Source: Candidatus Gastranaerophilales bacterium (lineage in GTDB: Bacteria > Cyanobacteriota > Vampirovibrionia > Gastranaerophilales > Gastranaerophilaceae). From it: a stretch of DNA of 64,000 bases. Every line of letters begins with the position of its first letter. The first letter of the stretch is position 1. This document shows positions 53,152 through 60,506 of the stretch, in pieces. The notes below the pieces were generated by a model. That model saw only the letters and a program-made list of their open reading frames with translations. It did no database searches and was not told where the DNA came from. A program made the position numbers and the translations under genes. The stretch is taken from assembly GCA_944324835.1 (NCBI GenBank), contig CALUXV010000003.1:1-64000 (forward strand). Reading direction: 5' to 3'.

Positions 53152-53180
53152 TTGACCTCAGAAAATGTTTAATATAGAAT
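53152..53180 (+). promoter_or_regulatory. Promoter upstream of the tRNA-Pro region
   Basis: -35 TTGACC (53152-53157), 17-nt spacer, -10 TAGAAT (53175-53180). Reads towards the tRNA-Pro gene; if used, the transcript would also contain the two tRNA-5'-like units at 53206 and 53343. Confidence 0.55.
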
Positions 53181-53205: not shown

Positions 53206-53320
53206 CGGGATGTGGCAAGAACTTCGGAGCAACAATTAAGTATTGTTGCGGTGGAGGCAGGCAGAGTCAAAAGCAAAGCTTTTGCGAGCCGTATAAAAAT
53301 ACTACCAAGCTGCATCTAAA
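53206..53320 (+). repeat. tRNA-Pro 5'-end-like unit A with TTAAGTA hairpin
   Basis: Begins with CGGGATGTGGC, the first 11 nt of the tRNA-Pro gene. A hairpin GCAACAA-TTAAGTA-TTGTTGC (53228-53248) follows, then CAAAAGC-AA-AGCTTTTG. It ends in CTACCAAGCTG, the inverse of the tRNA D-arm segment CAGCTTGGTAG. It is no longer a tRNA: the anticodon and T arms are missing. Structure shared with unit B. Confidence 0.6.
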
Positions 53321-53342
53321 AACAAAATTGACAACTTAATAT

Positions 53343-53428
53343 CGGGATGTGGCGCAGCTTGACTCTGCCGAACAAAATGATTAAGTATCATTTTGTGAGA
53401 GGAAGCACCGTAGGTGCGCTACTCCATG
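53343..53428 (+). repeat. tRNA-Pro 5'-end-like unit B with TTAAGTA hairpin
   Basis: The first 18 nt (CGGGATGTGGCGCAGCTT) are identical to the start of tRNA-Pro. They are followed by GACTCTGCC (inverse of GGCAGAGTC in unit A), a hairpin ACAAAATGA-TTAAGTA-TCATTTTGT (53372-53396), and AGGTGCGCTAC, the inverse of the tRNA segment GTAGCGCACCT. The hairpin loop is the same as in unit A while the stem differs. Confidence 0.6.
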
Positions 53429-53443
53429 ACAATTAAATACTTT

Positions 53444-53520
53444 CGGGATGTGGCGCAGCTTGGTAGCGCACCTCGCTTGGGACGAGGGGGTCGCACGTTC
53501 AAATCGTGTCATCCCGACCA
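53444..53520 (+). tRNA. tRNA-Pro (anticodon UGG)
   Basis: 77 nt, full cloverleaf: acceptor stem CGGGATG/CATCCCG, discriminator A and encoded CCA. The D arm is GCGC..GCGC, and the anticodon stem CCTCG/CGAGG encloses the loop CTTGGGA (anticodon TGG). The T arm is CACG-TTCAAAT-CGTG. It is the attachment target of the neighbouring island. Confidence 0.97.
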
Positions 53521-53524
53521 TTTA
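53476..53524 (+). repeat. Attachment site copy 1 (attL-like), 49 bp in the tRNA-Pro 3' half
   Basis: From the anticodon loop (CTTGGGACGAGG) through CCA and 4 bases beyond. Identical over 49 bp to 60458-60506. Typical core of tRNA-integrating elements, which keep the tRNA intact on one side. Confidence 0.85.
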
Positions 53525-53528
53525 AATA

Positions 53529-53562
53529 AAAGAGTTTCAGGAAATTTCTGAAACTCTTTTTT
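53529..53562 (+). terminator. Terminator of tRNA-Pro (island-derived)
   Basis: Stem AAAGAGTTTCAG and CTGAAACTCTTT with loop GAAATTT, ending in a T-run, 8 nt past the tRNA CCA. Being inside the island, it was probably brought by the element. Confidence 0.8.
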
Positions 53563-53658
53563 ATTGTCATTATGTAATTATTATGTAATCAAACCTTCTC
53601 TTCACACTTGCAATAGCATGAAACTTCAGATATAAATGACTTTAATATAGATTTTGAA

Positions 53659-56262
53659 TTATAACCTGCTCATTGCTTCATTAAATTGAGCCTGCCGTTC
53701 GGCTTTATTAAAGAAAGGGAAACCTATTATCTTGTAGTTATTATCATCAATTAATGTTTTCACAGGTATTCCTTCATTTTCAATCTCCAGCAAAAATTGT
53801 TCTTTCCAACTGTCTTTTAATATCAAGTGAGAGCCTTTAGGTTCAATAAAAATCTGGTATTGGTCTGTTATATTGCCATTATGCTTGGTCATAATAAGTA
53901 AGTAATCCGGCTCAAAACGTTCACCGCCATTGAAAGAGAACAATTTTAGCTGTCTTTCATTCCTTATTAAATAAACTTTTTCATACTTATCTTTTAAATC
54001 CTGTACATGGTCTTTAAAGTATGCAACAAATTCTTTTTCTTCACTTGTTCCATAGTTATCTGTAAATACAAACCAATCTTCATCTGGTAAGTTCACTTTT
54101 AAATGTTCAGAAATAGCTCCATGAGATTGAGACACTCCTTGTCCGTCTCCATGAGGGTCTGTGTAGCTTACAGTTTTATCTTTAAACACTTCACATAATT
54201 TTTTAGGCTTAAACTCTTTAGAACCTTCATAAGTTTCTTCAATATCAGAAATTTTATCGGCAATCTTTTCTAATACACGTTTACACGCTATATATAACTG
54301 TTCATTATTTACTTCAGGAATACTTGTTTTAATATTAATTTTAATATTTCCCAGATATTTATGGTCAGTTATAAACTGCCTGATTGATGTTAAATTAGGG
54401 TAGTATTCTTGTAATATATTAAATTTATAAATATTAAATTGACGTAAAGCCTTATGTACTATTGAGTAATTCCTGTCTGCAATCTGTGATATAGTGAAGG
54501 ATTTCGTATACCCTTTTTCTAGTGTATTTGTGTCATCTTCTGAATTTTCCAATAACGTATTTAGAGCTGTTGCTCCAGATGATAAGTCAATATTATAATC
54601 AGCCATTCTTACAGATGGCAACAATTCTGTAATTTTCTTTCTGGATTTTACGACTCGCTCATTTTCAAACACCAAACCTCGTTTATAAATATCATCACGC
54701 TTAAAATCTTCTTTTAATATGTATGAACATTCCGTAATATTATCCGGTAATAAGCCGATACCTTTCATTGCTGTTGTTAATTCAGAAATATACAATGAAT
54801 TATACATGCAGTGGTAATATAATGTTTCACAAATTCTTAATTCATTAGTAATGTCATCATCAAACTTACGTAAAAACCTTTCAGATTTATCGGTTGTTGT
54901 AAAAGGGCAATATCTTGCACCTCTGCCGATTAATTGTGCTTCTTGTATCGTTTGTTTTCCCGGACCACCATGTCTCTCTGCACTACGGGTTTCATATAAT
55001 CTTACAATATCGAAAAGATTTAAAACATCCCAGCCTTCATTTAACTGGTCTACGGCAAATATACAGCGTATTAAATTATTTCTATCTTCCAGAGAATTTA
55101 TTAATAGTTGATAAGTTCCCTTATCTTCTCTACTGTTGACAGAAATACATTTATTATCAGAAAAATCTTCTTTTATCTCTAAAATAAGTTCTTGTAATGA
55201 TAAATGACTGTCATAATACGAAAACATTTTAGCCAAGAGCGGATTTTCTGTCTGGGTTCTTATTCTGTTTAAATCGGTAACTGATAAGTTATCAATCAAT
55301 GGTCTAAATTGTTCCGTATAAAATTTCTTACTCGAATCAATCTTATCACTTTTAAATAAAATTACAGGTTTTATCGTCTTCTTATTGTCTTGAAACAGTT
55401 TTAATCTGTACTGACTCAACAGTATTGCCTGTAGAACTCTGTCAATTAGTGGTACATGGGATTGAAAAGTTTTAACTTCTTTAGAGTATCTATCTTCTCT
55501 AAACTTTTTCAACGGATAATCTATGATAATTTTCTTTTCATACTCGTTCTTAATATATGGATTTTTCAAGTCGCAAGTAGCTGTAAACTCTAATAGAACA
55601 TTATCTCTATCTGCATTAAATATTCTGTTTACAGTTGTTTCCCAACTGTTTTTATCTTCTTTTTCCCCTTTGGATAAGCCTTTTTTCGTTTCAATATTGA
55701 GGTGGTGGGCTTCATCAGCAATTAAAACAATTTTCTTCTCTGAAAAATCATCATCAGTAATGCCGTTTTCCTTAAATTGAGTAAGGCTCGTGTGCAACCC
55801 TTGAATGGTTGTAAAACATATATTAATATCGTCTTTGTTCCAATCCTGAAAGTTATCAACTGTCCTGATTTTAACAGACTGTCCATCAATATTAATCTCG
55901 TCATTAAAAAGGTATTTGCTTGAGGTCTGATTTATAAAGTTATCCTTAGTTTTCTGGACGATATTATCAGTGTTGACGAAAAACAGAAAGTTTCTGTATC
56001 CCTTCTTGTAAAGATACAAAATAAGCCCTGCCATAATCAATGTTTTTCCACTGCCTGTAGCCATGTGAAATAATACCTGTGATGGCTTACGGCATAATCT
56101 TTCATTCTCAAAATAGGTTATGAAATTTCTAAACGCAATTTCTTGATACGGTCTTATTGTATATTTTTGAGTGAGATTTTGTGTAACATATTTTGGAAGC
56201 TCTTTATAAGCTTCCGGAGCATATTCTCTTAATGTCTTTATTTCTTCAAACAAAAAAGTCAT
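53659..56262 (-). CDS. res: Type III restriction endonuclease, Res subunit
   Basis: 867 aa. The N-terminal superfamily 2 helicase has Walker A FHMATGSGKT (67-74), DEAH box LIADEAHH (183-186), and motif VI in QLIGRGARYCPF. The C-terminal PD-(D/E)xK nuclease has EPDYLL (Asp786) and FIEPKG (Glu807, Lys809). It cleaves DNA in complex with Mod when two unmethylated sites are engaged. Res starts directly after the mod stop (TAA-ATG), so they are co-translated. No frameshift or missing motif. Confidence 0.93.
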   Translation of the reverse strand: MTFLFEEIKTLREYAPEAYKELPKYVTQNLTQKYTIRPYQEIAFRNFITYFENERLCRKPSQVLFHMATGSGKTLIMAGLILYLYKKGYRNFLFFVNTDNIVQKTKDNFINQTSSKYLFNDEINIDGQSVKIRTVDNFQDWNKDDINICFTTIQGLHTSLTQFKENGITDDDFSEKKIVLIADEAHHLNIETKKGLSKGEKEDKNSWETTVNRIFNADRDNVLLEFTATCDLKNPYIKNEYEKKIIIDYPLKKFREDRYSKEVKTFQSHVPLIDRVLQAILLSQYRLKLFQDNKKTIKPVILFKSDKIDSSKKFYTEQFRPLIDNLSVTDLNRIRTQTENPLLAKMFSYYDSHLSLQELILEIKEDFSDNKCISVNSREDKGTYQLLINSLEDRNNLIRCIFAVDQLNEGWDVLNLFDIVRLYETRSAERHGGPGKQTIQEAQLIGRGARYCPFTTTDKSERFLRKFDDDITNELRICETLYYHCMYNSLYISELTTAMKGIGLLPDNITECSYILKEDFKRDDIYKRGLVFENERVVKSRKKITELLPSVRMADYNIDLSSGATALNTLLENSEDDTNTLEKGYTKSFTISQIADRNYSIVHKALRQFNIYKFNILQEYYPNLTSIRQFITDHKYLGNIKINIKTSIPEVNNEQLYIACKRVLEKIADKISDIEETYEGSKEFKPKKLCEVFKDKTVSYTDPHGDGQGVSQSHGAISEHLKVNLPDEDWFVFTDNYGTSEEKEFVAYFKDHVQDLKDKYEKVYLIRNERQLKLFSFNGGERFEPDYLLIMTKHNGNITDQYQIFIEPKGSHLILKDSWKEQFLLEIENEGIPVKTLIDDNNYKIIGFPFFNKAERQAQFNEAMSRL

Positions 56263-58203
56263 TTACACATCTCCGTAAAAGCTTTTCGTAAATACTTTTT
56301 CTTCTTCTGTTACAGCAAGTTCTTCATCTTCCATATCACAGTAGTTTACATAAAGCAGATTTTTATCCAATACTTCAATCAAGAACCTGCGTTTATCTTC
56401 TGTTGACAAGTCTTTAAAGTCTTGTTTCGAATTTTTAAGTTTATTTATATCCACCTTATAACTGATAAATTCAGACTCCGTGATTTGAGGATATAATTCA
56501 ACAAGTTTGTCATCATCAGCAACCATTATTTCGTCTATATACTTTTGGTTCAGTTCTTTTAATTCGCAATAAACGAAACTTCCACCGCCTTGCCAGTCTA
56601 CATCTTTAGAAATACCGCCTTGTTCACCATTTAATGTAGCTTTTAATCTTTCAATTGACACATTATTTATGTATGTCATTTGTTCAATCCCAATAAATTG
56701 TCTGTTCAATTTTAATGCAACAGACTGGGTAGTTGCGGCGCCCATGAAAAAGTCTAATATAATATCATTCTCTTTTGTACAAACTTCAAGAATAGATTTT
56801 ATAAGATTTTCTGGCTTAGAATAATTAAATTTTTCATTTCCAAGAGTTTGTTCTATTTGTTCATTACCATCCTTATTTTTTGAATAAAACATAAGGTTAC
56901 TTAAAAAATCTTGGATTTGAAAATCTGAAATTACAGCACTTAATTTCCCACTTTTTTCATCTTCTTCTTTAAATTTGCGAGAATAAGGAACTGATATATT
57001 TAAAAAATCGTAATCATCAGGAAATACAATTGCTCCTTTATCATAATATTCTTGAAAAGTGTCTTTTGTAATTCCCCAAAGCCTTTTAGGATTATATTTA
57101 TAGACCTTTTGAGTTTTCGGGTCAATTAAATCAAACGCTGAATTAGGACGTTGAGATTCAACTTTTTGCGTTGTCAAATCAGAAATACGCCAAGGACGTC
57201 CTGGAAAATCAGGGGTTTCATAATATTTACGTTTTACAACTCTTCCGACAATATCTGTTTTATCTGTAACATTCGTGTAACATAGCAACCAATCAAAATC
57301 CTGTGAAAGATTGAAAGGAACATCAGATTTACCATTACGAGTTCTTCTTGGTAACGTTGCAACAAAATGTTCTTTACCAAAAATGTCATCTGCCATTACT
57401 TTTAAATAGTGCATACCGTCATCGCTTATGCTTATCCATATAGTTCCTCCTTCACATAACATTCTTTTAGACATTTCCAATCTATTCTTCATAAATGATA
57501 GCCAAGTAGACATATGAAAATTAGAATTATACTTAAAGGCATCCGTTTCTGTTGCTTTATTAAAATAATATGGTGGGTCAATGTAGATACATTTAACTCT
57601 GCCTTCATATCTTTTAAGTATAGAAGATAAGGCGAGTAAATTATTACCTTTTATTAGTAGATTGTCAGAATCTTGAAATTCAGTTATGTTTTCCTCTCCA
57701 TCTTTCGTATAGCGTTTAGCATTTGTGAACACTTTAGGATCAAGCAATCTATCTACGTCATCAGGTGCTAATAACTCATTGTAATAGATTTCTTCTCGTT
57801 TCTGGTCTTCTTTTGTTTGACCGCCTTCCAAAACGCAGTCTTTATAAGGAAAGGATAAAACCACATCGTTTTTAGAAGAGATAAATTGTTCCCTACTATC
57901 AATCAATCCAATAGTATTTTTAAACCTTGTGTAAGAGTCTTGCAGAAATGCCTTATTATTTATTGCCCACCCGAAAGCAGTTTTATCAAACACAAGCAAG
58001 CCGTCTATGTCCGTAAAAAACTGTTCTTTAATTCTGTCATTTGATAGCAAGAGTTTAATCAGGTCTTTATCCATTTTCATGGCACATTCATATAATTTAT
58101 TTCTGAGTAGGTCTTTTCCATTTTCTGAATAAAATCTATTTTCAGGGTCTTGTTTCAATAAATCCAACAACTCAAAATAAAACCCTTCTCTCTTTTTCAC
58201 CAT
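56263..58203 (-). CDS. mod: Type III DNA methyltransferase, Mod subunit
   Basis: 646 aa. Beta-class adenine methyltransferase: motif IV DPPY (209-212) comes before the SAM motif FFMGAATT (485-492), with the target-recognition domain between them (about 280-440). Mod methylates one strand of an asymmetric site and provides specificity to Res. Start ATG 58203 has AGGAGAG 6 nt upstream. I see no simple-sequence tract in the gene, so phase variation by slippage is not indicated. The specificity cannot be read from the sequence. Confidence 0.93.
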   Translation of the reverse strand: MVKKREGFYFELLDLLKQDPENRFYSENGKDLLRNKLYECAMKMDKDLIKLLLSNDRIKEQFFTDIDGLLVFDKTAFGWAINNKAFLQDSYTRFKNTIGLIDSREQFISSKNDVVLSFPYKDCVLEGGQTKEDQKREEIYYNELLAPDDVDRLLDPKVFTNAKRYTKDGEENITEFQDSDNLLIKGNNLLALSSILKRYEGRVKCIYIDPPYYFNKATETDAFKYNSNFHMSTWLSFMKNRLEMSKRMLCEGGTIWISISDDGMHYLKVMADDIFGKEHFVATLPRRTRNGKSDVPFNLSQDFDWLLCYTNVTDKTDIVGRVVKRKYYETPDFPGRPWRISDLTTQKVESQRPNSAFDLIDPKTQKVYKYNPKRLWGITKDTFQEYYDKGAIVFPDDYDFLNISVPYSRKFKEEDEKSGKLSAVISDFQIQDFLSNLMFYSKNKDGNEQIEQTLGNEKFNYSKPENLIKSILEVCTKENDIILDFFMGAATTQSVALKLNRQFIGIEQMTYINNVSIERLKATLNGEQGGISKDVDWQGGGSFVYCELKELNQKYIDEIMVADDDKLVELYPQITESEFISYKVDINKLKNSKQDFKDLSTEDKRRFLIEVLDKNLLYVNYCDMEDEELAVTEEEKVFTKSFYGDV

Positions 58204-58526
58204 GCTACAAACTCTCCTATCCTAGCATTATTAAACTATTAATTCGCTTTTACGACATAACCTGTTTAAAGGATTTTTTATAAAACGTTTGAAATAAGTC
58301 GTTAGACTGTACTTTTTTTAATAATGATAACAATTCATTCACGTTTTACAAAACGTACAATTTAGTGAATAATTTCAGTAGGGCATATTATTAGAACTTT
58401 AGCATTTCTTGTTTTTATACCATAATACTTATTAAATCTTTCTCTTTTAAAATTTGACTTTCCCACAAGAAAGTGACAAATTTATAGCAAAATTTAATCC
58501 AAAATACTCAACCTTTTTGAAACTCA
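58204..58526. other. Upstream region of the restriction-modification operon
   Basis: No gene. Two dyads: ACGTTTT-AC-AAAACGT (58341-58356), about 140 bp before mod, and AAATTTGACTTTC / GAAAGTGACAAATTT (58450-58483). They are candidate regulator sites, possibly for a control protein outside the window. Confidence 0.4.
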
Positions 58527-58688
58527 GAAATATATTACAGCAAAAAAATTGTCGATTTCTTTAAATTTGCACCACGCACTGCAAACCGCTTGCTTTTGAA
58601 ATGGACAGAAGCAGGGTTTATTATCGCAGAAGGTGAAGGGAAAAATAGAAAATACAGATTAAATGACAAATATGAAGTTATTTTGTAA
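58527..58688 (+). pseudogene. Remnant of a Fic-type protein C-terminal winged helix
   Basis: In one frame the DNA reads EIYYSKKIVDFFKFAPRTAN, then RLLLKWTEAGFIIAEGEGKN and RKYRLNDKYEVIL, stop. This is the recognition helix and wing typical of the C-terminal HTH in Fic-family proteins. A stop lies just upstream (TGA) and there is no start, so only a 53-residue fragment of an older gene remains, transcribed opposite to its neighbours. The Fic origin is an inference from the pattern. Confidence 0.5.
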
Positions 58689-58753
58689 GCCTGTCAAAAT
58701 GTATAATACAACCCTGCCATTTTGTAAAATATGAGTGTGCTATTTTGTAAAAT
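58689..58753. other. Spacer with a repeated ATTTTGTAAAAT box
   Basis: Two copies of ATTTTGTAAAAT, 23 bp apart, directly downstream of the hipA stop codon. Could be a weak regulatory site or decayed repeat; not a terminator. Confidence 0.3.
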
Positions 58754-59989
58754 TTATTTTGATAACAAAAAAGCATCTTCCATTTTATTAATTTCGGACT
58801 TTGATAATCCCATATTTTTAGCAACCTGCCGCCATTTTGAGGTTTGTTTTTTCATCTCTAAAATAATATTTTTAGCCGTTTCAGGCATGATATCAAAATA
58901 TTCACTTACTTCTAAGGCTAAATCCAAACTTTGTGAGTTATCATGTTCCGTTATGTAAGTGCTTAAAACATTTTTATTGTCATTGCTTGGATTAACGTCA
59001 TACAATGGGGATAATCGCCAACCGCCTTCATTTACATATAAAAATCCGTGGTTTCTAAGGTGGTCGTCTGTGTTTGAAATAAGGATTGAAAATACAATTC
59101 TTTTCCAAAGTTCTGTTAAATCCTCTTTCGGTGCTGCTCCGTATTGTCTTATTGCATCTGCAATATCCATATAACTATGAGTTTGGCTGTCATTATCAAC
59201 AGCATTAAGCATACTCATTGCAGATAAGAACGGAACTCGTTGTTCTCCTTTTCTGTCGAAACGTTTTAAAACAATGACGTCTTTAGTTCCCGCTTTAAGT
59301 AAAGACCATTCCTGAACTTTTAAACCGCAGTTTTTAGCAAGTGTAAGTGCAACTGCTTCCCAAAGTACGTTATTTGTAAAATCGTCTTTTTTAGGAAATT
59401 TCGCAATACATAAGTTGCCCTGTTTATCAATAACACTGGCTTTGGGTCTGGCTCCGCCCAGAGATGAACCCGGTGCTAGCAACAGTTGCAAATCGCTATT
59501 CTTTTCTTCTGAAGCTATAACTTTTTCTGTTGCCGCAAGTAATTTAGTTAGATTTACCAATGGCGGAATAGATTTTAAACTACCCGGGTACAAAAATTCT
59601 TCACTGTCTTCTGTTTTGAATCGTAAAGCACCCTGCCTTGCATAATCATTTACATATAAAAGGTAGTCGATTTCATTTAGGGTTTTGGGGCTTCTGTTTT
59701 CTTCTTTTGCAATTTGATTTTCATATCTTCTCATAAGAATTCTGCCCCAGGTATCAGGTGCAGAGTCTCCAAATGAGCCAAACAAAGGAGTTTGTCGTGG
59801 GTTTACCTGTTTACCGAAACCAAAGAATAAGCCAGGTTCTAAAGAAAATGCTTTATTGTTATTTAACCACTCCTTTGAATACTCGAAATCAGACGTTTCT
59901 TTCCCTCTGTTAAAATGAGACCAGAGAGTTCCGACAAAATGATTTTCATTATTTAATTCTATATAAACTAAAATTTTTTTATCAGACAT
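58754..59989 (-). CDS. hipA: HipA-family toxin kinase
   Basis: 411 aa. Ser/Thr kinase toxin of the HipBA system. N-terminal HipA_N domain (LVYIELNNENHFVGTLW, FGSFGDSAPDTWGRILMRRY), phosphorylation/ATP loop SSLGGARPKASVID (about 175), catalytic FSILISNTDDHLRNHGFLY (Asp in NTDDH, about 300) and metal-site YDVNPSN. In E. coli HipA phosphorylates glutamyl-tRNA synthetase and arrests growth. It follows hipB after 5 bp. All catalytic residues are present. Confidence 0.92.
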   Translation of the reverse strand: MSDKKILVYIELNNENHFVGTLWSHFNRGKETSDFEYSKEWLNNNKAFSLEPGLFFGFGKQVNPRQTPLFGSFGDSAPDTWGRILMRRYENQIAKEENRSPKTLNEIDYLLYVNDYARQGALRFKTEDSEEFLYPGSLKSIPPLVNLTKLLAATEKVIASEEKNSDLQLLLAPGSSLGGARPKASVIDKQGNLCIAKFPKKDDFTNNVLWEAVALTLAKNCGLKVQEWSLLKAGTKDVIVLKRFDRKGEQRVPFLSAMSMLNAVDNDSQTHSYMDIADAIRQYGAAPKEDLTELWKRIVFSILISNTDDHLRNHGFLYVNEGGWRLSPLYDVNPSNDNKNVLSTYITEHDNSQSLDLALEVSEYFDIMPETAKNIILEMKKQTSKWRQVAKNMGLSKSEINKMEDAFLLSK

Positions 59990-59994
59990 AAATT

Positions 59995-60315
59995 TTATCC
60001 TTCGTCTTTTTTATAACGGACTCGTTGAGGAAGATTATTTTTATCATATATCTTGCCTACAGTATCACTATCAGGGTCCGCAAGGTTGTAAAGATTATCT
60101 ATTAAACCGAGTACAAACATGACTTTTGCATAAATACCCATAGAAACACCTGAATCGCCTTTTTCCACTTTAGTTAAGGTAATATGAGTAATCCCGGCAC
60201 GTTCCTCCACAAGTGCCATTGTAAGCCGTCTTTTTATACGGGCTTCTTTTAAATCTGCCCCGAGTTTTTTTAATGCTTTATTAACAGGTATTGGTATTAC
60301 TGATGTTTTTTTCAT
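59995..60315 (-). CDS. hipB: HipB-like antitoxin (Xre-family HTH)
   Basis: 106 aa. Xre-type helix-turn-helix (KKLGADLKEARIKRRLTMAL then VEERAGITHITLTKVEKGDS, about residues 14-55), followed by a basic C-terminal tail (RVRYKKDEG). It neutralises and co-represses with HipA. Palindromic sites lie directly upstream. The start ATG lacks a strong ribosome-binding site. Confidence 0.9.
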   Translation of the reverse strand: MKKTSVIPIPVNKALKKLGADLKEARIKRRLTMALVEERAGITHITLTKVEKGDSGVSMGIYAKVMFVLGLIDNLYNLADPDSDTVGKIYDKNNLPQRVRYKKDEG

Positions 60316-60323
60316 GAGATTAA

Positions 60324-60373
60324 AATATATTATCGTATATATTATACCACTTTAAATATATTATAATATATTT
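60324..60373. promoter_or_regulatory. hipB operators and promoter
   Basis: A perfect 20-bp palindrome (AAATATATTA and TAATATATTT, 60354-60373) and an imperfect one (AATATATTA-TC-GTATATATT, 60324-60343). Between them, on the minus strand, is a TATAAT -10 (60341-60346), so HipB binding would shut the promoter. Sites are 8 to 58 bp before the hipB ATG. Confidence 0.6.
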
Positions 60374-60457
60374 TATTTAAAAATCAAGTAAAATAAAAAG
60401 GTTATGGTAATTGCGTTTAAGGACGTTTAAAATATCGGATGACGCTGGTAAAACTCC

Positions 60458-60506
60458 CTTGGGACGAGGGGGTCGCACGTTCAAATCGTGTCATCCCGAC
60501 CATTTA
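60458..60506 (+). repeat. Attachment site copy 2 (attR-like), duplicate of tRNA-Pro 3' half
   Basis: 49 bp identical to 53476-53524. The upstream sequence (TCGGATGACGCTGGTAAAACTCC) does not form a tRNA 5' half, so this copy is not a functional tRNA gene. Confidence 0.85.

Follow-up and report, generated by a model that had tools for sequence, protein, structure and literature searches.

A family of hairpin repeats at tRNA gene ends in Gastranaerophilales

We identified a family of short non-coding hairpin repeats that lie at the ends of tRNA genes, where they form tandem arrays and are gained and lost at orthologous sites. The family was recognised in a stretch of 64,000 nucleotides from a Candidatus Gastranaerophilales bacterium (positions 1 to 64,000 of contig CALUXV010000003.1, here called the window), in which two units, A and B, precede a tRNA-Pro gene. 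It is lineage specific, and our searches confirmed that it is real and widespread well beyond the window. We consider it probable that units A and B are cassettes of a non-coding mobile hairpin family that arrays at tRNA gene ends, inserted either by an enzyme acting on folded DNA or by template switching. A search of the papers available to us returned no account of the present hairpin family, which is apparently undescribed so far.

Units A and B at the tRNA-Pro gene

tRNA-Pro(TGG), the window's sole tRNA gene, is preceded by two units that each begin with a copy of its 5' end (L). The features of the locus are as follows.

53152 to 53180, + strand: TTGACC-17-TAGAAT, a promoter-like site for tRNA-Pro transcription from a consensus scan, kept in five congeners and upstream of both units
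53206 to 53216, + strand: L (stub) of unit A, CGGGATGTGGC, tRNA-Pro bases 1-11, break GGC|GCA (from sequence and alignment)
53217 to 53257, + strand: type-1 core hairpin (AAGRACT..GGAGG) of unit A, with the loop TTAAGTA at 53236-53242
53258 to 53327, + strand: part of unit A after the core, with the inverted tRNA piece CTACCAAGCTGC (53302-53313)
53328 to 53361, + strand: direct repeat consisting of the leader motif TTGACAACTTAATAT and L of unit B
53343 to 53361, + strand: L of unit B, tRNA-Pro bases 1-19, break TTG|GTA in the D loop
53362 to 53402, + strand: type-2 core hairpin (ACTCTGCCGA-stem-TTAAGTA-stem-GAGAGG) of unit B, matched by a covariance model at 68.5 bits (E 2.8e-11)
53403 to 53426, + strand: part of unit B after the core, with the inverted tRNA piece GGTGCGCTAC (53413-53422)
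53427 to 53443, + strand: second copy of the leader motif (TGACAATTAAATACTTT), preceding the intact tRNA
53444 to 53520, + strand: intact tRNA-Pro(TGG) (ARAGORN, Rfam)

Much of what the first-pass annotation had read here from the sequence stands. Unit A does start with eleven nucleotides of tRNA-Pro, and a stub is likewise present in unit B, with a length of 19 nucleotides rather than the 18 proposed. Both TTAAGTA loops were found on differing stems, each perfectly paired, with the refinement that A and B represent two core types. The pieces CTACCAAGCTGC and GGTGCGCTAC are, as had been noted, inverted copies of tRNA-Pro, namely the reverse complements of the bases just past each unit's break, and the two breaks fall at two different GNA sites of one gene. 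The promoter-like site agrees with the single upstream promoter that had been postulated. A similar AT-rich lead was correctly described for the units; as a refinement, these leads have a TTGACAATTAAATA-like motif in common, which is also found before tRNA genes that lack any unit. As a separate observation, the motif TTGAMAAYTWAATA stands directly before many tRNA genes of family f1 of the Gastranaerophilales, with or without units (53328-53341 and 53427-53439 in the window), and is possibly a processing or promoter-related signal.

The stretch carrying the units folds as RNA with a z-score of -5.2 relative to shuffled sequences. In the minimum-energy fold GGCAGAGTC (53260-53268, unit A) pairs with GACTCTGCC, which is the interaction between A and B that had been suggested earlier. 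However, four congeners carry A without B, and we rejected this pairing as a conserved structure.

The orthologous tRNA-Pro locus, with the same promoter and the same upstream gene, was aligned in five congeners. In four of them the leader motif and the tRNA come immediately after unit A, which constitutes an empty site for unit B, and the fifth has a B-like unit only. The surplus in the window is 101 bases and corresponds to unit B: ~66 new non-coding bases, with no integrase gene between the repeats, together with the repeated leader motif and 19 tRNA bases. Judged by this alignment, unit B is a gain in the window genome. Homologues of unit A are present in G002, G003, G005 and G007, and also at tRNA-Pro(CGG) on contig C54 of the window's own genome (G000). 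Unit A is conserved at the orthologous locus, but its stem in the window genome is unlike those of the orthologues and resembles that of the tRNA-Pro(CGG) copies in the same genome, which suggests that the stem was acquired through ectopic conversion.

Two further features of the window lie outside the units. A genomic island (53473-60506) adjoins this tRNA-Pro at its 3' end. It carries type III restriction-modification genes (53659-56262 and 56263-58203) and a HipA-like kinase (58754-59989) with an HTH partner (59995-60315), and is closed by an exact ~50 bp copy of the part of the tRNA between the anticodon and the 3' end; no integrase was seen. Positions 1-295 hold the beginning of a minus-strand 16S rRNA gene, which the window edge truncates.

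The core hairpin and its distribution

The core is a non-coding hairpin of ~41 bases (mostly 39-45 bp in the main type) that occurs in two main types with a common loop, represented by unit A (type 1, AAGRACT..GGAGG) and unit B (type 2, ACTCTGCCGA..GAGAGG). The type-2 foot is fixed, and the stem above it varies freely yet is almost always paired, usually with the loop TTAAGTA. In a gapless alignment of 33 distinct 41-nt cores the foot is fully or nearly invariant, 95.1% of the cells in paired positions are paired, and two-sided changes occur in 10 of 13 pairs, comprising all ten pairs of the upper stem. The covariation score is 0.497, compared to 0.155 in shuffled alignments, none of which reached it in 500 trials. 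Changes of the stem with retention of pairing, which had been surmised from units A and B, are a property of the family, whose stems vary with compensation. The loop is mostly TTAAGTA, with others that include ACTAAAT and TTGATAA, and the 5' side of the stem is rich in A (358 A-T pairs versus 11 T-A). Conservation drops sharply outside the edges of the core, with the exception that the base preceding it is never A. When compared to Rfam the units match tRNA models only, all other matches being under the gathering score. Most cores (99 of 117) lie outside open reading frames, in loci that are ~76% covered by them.

A search of the genome and its relatives for the hairpin motif, as recommended with the first-pass annotation, clearly yielded many other copies, and the controls rule out chance. 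In the window's own genome (1.98 Mb in 97 contigs, a draft that is 97% complete), related stretches were found on other contigs, and GATTAAGTATC occurs 15 times versus 0 for a reversed control. These copies lie at tRNA-Pro(CGG), -Arg, -Met, -Lys, -Leu, -Tyr and -Thr genes, the exceptions being a few stemless chance matches. Within a set of 58 relatives, the type-2 core pattern is present in 20 genomes, with 0 control matches, and a covariance model finds the core in 37. The GTDB collection contains at least 115 such stretches, mostly in MAGs of Gastranaerophilales or Melainabacteria, and the few unpaired ones are due to chance. When the covariance model was applied to a sample of the phylum, 61 of 62 f1 genomes were positive, as compared to 0 of 84 others. 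The repeat family is confined to Gastranaerophilales family f1 and near relatives. Copy number per f1 genome ranges from 1 to 57 (the maximum being in G012); the genomes are mostly fragmented MAGs, in which tandem arrays are often located at contig ends. Phage and plasmid collections searched for the core gave no match, and 15 exact-pattern matches in viral contigs have no stems and were rejected as chance-like.

Cores are also carried by dispersed palindromes away from tRNA genes. One of these, CCCTCCC..core..GGGTGGGG, is amplified in G078, where 16 cores share an identical top score and are read as one repeated sequence that was recently amplified. A larger non-coding repeat, TGTCTGAG...TATGAAA, is structured, dispersed, 150-350 bp in length, and often core-bearing, with copies that include a core (L117 and L130) and one of 177 bp that does not (L079). 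We rejected it as an autonomous element because it is too short to encode a transposase. This highly structured repeat, in the form TGTCTGAG...GTTGACWATATGAAA, was observed at L117, L121, L130, L158, L048, L079 and other loci, with no obvious terminal inverted repeats.

Architecture and turnover of units at tRNA genes

Units at tRNA genes consist of flank and tRNA end (L), core, and a variable part in which direct or inverted pieces of the tRNA are often found, followed by flank, L and the remaining tRNA. Since the gene end and its flank are directly repeated with each insertion, an intact tRNA gene stays. Of the 109 non-redundant units, 5' ends hold 89; the other 20 lie at 3' ends and are antisense to the tRNA over their whole length. 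A tmRNA gene shows the same arrangement at its 3' end. Tandem arrays are formed by units of ~80-140 bp.

The break site lies ~8-26 bases inside the gene at either end, within the D stem, the D loop, past the D arm, or in the T arm. In 54 of 73 scorable 5' units it is 11-12 bases in, and in the rest at 8, 18-20 or 26. The target B|GNA (the bar marking the break) is present at 89 of 90 scorable junctions versus 14% of the positions within those tRNA ends, a difference whose P value is not literal because the motif was recognised and tested on the one data set in which it was counted and the conserved D and T arms make the sites partly dependent. The junction triplets are GGA (51), GCA (25), GTA (11) and GAA (2).

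Inverted tRNA pieces after the core exceed those in shuffled sequences in 35 of 86 5' units and 12 of 20 3' units, and direct pieces do so in 43 of 86 and 3 of 20, respectively. We examined a closing stem (P1) between L and the inverted piece, which would form a three-way junction. This pairing is striking in some units, and several in which L has diverged retain it, such as L035 (TTTATGGC/GCCATAAA) and L057. When the stem is anchored at the core, however, it is above shuffles (P<=0.05) in 10 of 86 units, and we therefore do not claim P1 as a general rule. Complementarity to the unit's own tRNA as opposed to other tRNAs failed as a discriminator, because tRNA arms resemble one another.

The turnover seen at tRNA-Pro has a counterpart at tRNA-Leu(gag), where about half of ~48 genomes have units and the others have none. 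The units there are of type 2, type 1, both types in tandem, or coreless palindromes, and they turn over even within a genus (g10 and g16). The coreless units of L322, L325, L334 and L335 have a layout of tRNA 5' end, 35-55 nt, inverted tRNA bases ~8-21, leader and intact tRNA. In a separate locus of the window's own genome (L357, G000:C14:10500-20500), a tRNA-Met at 573-644 has a 5' unit, the relic of a tRNA-Met 3' end lies ~8 kb off and has a 3' unit, and a 366-aa integrase is encoded close to the far end. It seems that a tRNA gene with a unit at each end was divided by an integrative element, a situation paralleled in G004 (L039).

Possible origins and comparison with known systems

The first-pass annotation had offered two readings. 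One of them, small palindromic elements that insert in tRNA genes and leave 5' stubs, has good support from the dispersed family, its presence at both tRNA ends and at tmRNA, the empty and filled orthologous sites, and the B|GNA junction. We propose that the hairpin is recognised as a folded single strand and would be inserted at B|GNA, within or next to hairpins, either by an enzyme in trans or by template switching from hairpin to hairpin during replication. The inverted tRNA pieces would be templated from the target, and repeated insertion events would produce tandem arrays. Insertions into tRNA genes should persist only where an intact gene is kept, and this would account for the direct repeat, be it a product of the insertion itself or retained by selection. 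A counterpoint to a mobile hairpin is that 40-140 bp, the size of a unit, is less than an ordinary double-stranded circle requires. A more specific version, which we advance tentatively, holds that the folded hairpin of ~41 nt is the whole element, that structure together with the B|GNA sequence directs it into tRNA arms in integron-like arrays, and that the target is copied forwards and backwards.

Several candidate engines were considered, and neither RAYT, IS110, reverse transcriptase, integrase nor tyrosine recombinase could be tied to the hairpin. No core was found in the flanks of the RAYT loci looked at; RAYT genes are present in 10 of 20 core-positive versus 11 of 38 core-negative genomes of the relatives set, and within f1 their presence is weakly associated with copy number (P=0.056). 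There is no Transposase_20 (IS110) match in G000, and 8 of the 58 relatives have one; RVT_1 is also without a match in the 97% complete G000 draft. The most core-rich genome, G012, has just two tyrosine recombinases. The attC R boxes (RYYYAAC / GTTRRRY) are absent from the aligned cores, which end ACTCTGCC / GAGAGG. Several short tyrosine recombinases (~180-210 aa) were observed on contigs C29, C39 and C42 of G000 and in other f1 genomes; the usual N-terminal part is seemingly missing, and they are many in G078 and none in G012.

Template switching, one of the two mechanisms kept within our preferred explanation, might also act without any dedicated enzyme. Replication would stall at tRNA arms or palindromes, and switching would generate quasi-palindromes and partial tandem duplications, with the hairpin as a favoured donor template and with added gene conversion. 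Switching between hairpins would explain the coreless units, which have the same tRNA 5'-end palindrome, and the inverted pieces; direct pieces, the absence of any correlated enzyme, and the resemblance of the unit A stem to the tRNA-Pro(CGG) copies, as in ectopic conversion, are also consistent with it. However, one 41-nt foot sequence shared across many tRNA types and the precise B|GNA junction suggest specific recognition, and none of the other genomes in the phylum sample has the hairpin. We regard a wholly enzyme-free origin as a minority possibility, though a serious alternative to an enzyme.

The other reading of the first-pass annotation was a structured RNA processed with the tRNA, and in this form the hairpin, with its tRNA-like 5' strand and the complement of that strand, would serve the tRNA transcript as a switch, processing signal or antitermination element. 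The inspected tRNA-Pro units do sit between a promoter-like site and the tRNA, the core covaries strongly, and inverted pieces exceed chance in many 5' units. In 5' units the sense strand gives the better fold (mean z -1.67, versus -1.06 for its complement), which leans towards RNA, as does the closing stem kept in some units with diverged L. Such a role is possible for 5' units, but it leaves the 3'-end units, which are antisense and in some cases past a terminator, unexplained. Neither these nor the copy at tmRNA can be leaders, and the dispersed palindromes, the absence of units from about half of orthologous tRNA-Leu(gag) genes, the turnover at tRNA-Pro, and the low yield of the anchored closing-stem test all argue against it. 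The ratio of G-T to A-C mismatches in the cores (8 to 4) is not decisive. We consider a leader RNA unlikely as an account of the family. That the stubs are att sites left after the loss of large tRNA-targeted integrative elements is highly improbable: tyrosine integrases do leave direct repeats of tRNA ends, and the window has such an island at the same tRNA-Pro, but the units are small, form tandem arrays, share one hairpin at unrelated tRNAs, and break at B|GNA in D and T arms, whereas the repeat of the island covers the tRNA between its anticodon and its 3' end.

If the hairpin is mobile, it would be among the smallest mobile DNA elements known, with a clear target rule and a means of invading essential tRNA genes harmlessly. 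Its mechanism can be tested through pairs of empty and filled sites, the junction motif, and differences in copy number. Since it is nearly universal in one family, it provides a genomic marker for the f1 gut lineage. Annotation should be cautious, as tRNA stubs and leaders in these genomes may be mobile-element debris and not functional tRNA parts.

The family shares features with several known systems. Structured leader RNAs such as riboswitch-like or antitermination elements also place a covarying hairpin between promoter and gene, but here the hairpin is also found antisense at 3' ends and in palindromes, and is freely gained and lost. Integrative elements that target tRNA genes likewise duplicate the gene end as a direct repeat and keep the gene intact; the present units, in contrast, are ~100 bp, have no integrase and other break positions, and use one hairpin for many tRNAs and for both ends. 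Integron cassettes resemble them in having structured hairpins (attC) and short units in tandem at a fixed place. However, the core has no attC R boxes, the unit has no gene, there are many target sites, and no integron integrase was identified here, the tyrosine recombinases present being of unsorted types. REP/BIME sequences mobilised by RAYT (Y1) transposases are also short, non-autonomous intergenic hairpins with dozens of copies. REP stems are conserved, whereas here the stem is free and the foot fixed, the targets are tRNA ends, and no RAYT is located beside the cores looked at. Rickettsia palindromic elements are small palindromes that invaded a compact genome. The repetitive hairpin elements of sponge mitochondria are described in similar terms (PMC2800124). 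Relative to both, the present family differs in the restoration of the tRNA gene by duplication, the cassette arrays, and the B|GNA break. The family is best filed with the small non-coding mobile elements of palindromic type, among which its link to tRNA gene ends is unusual.
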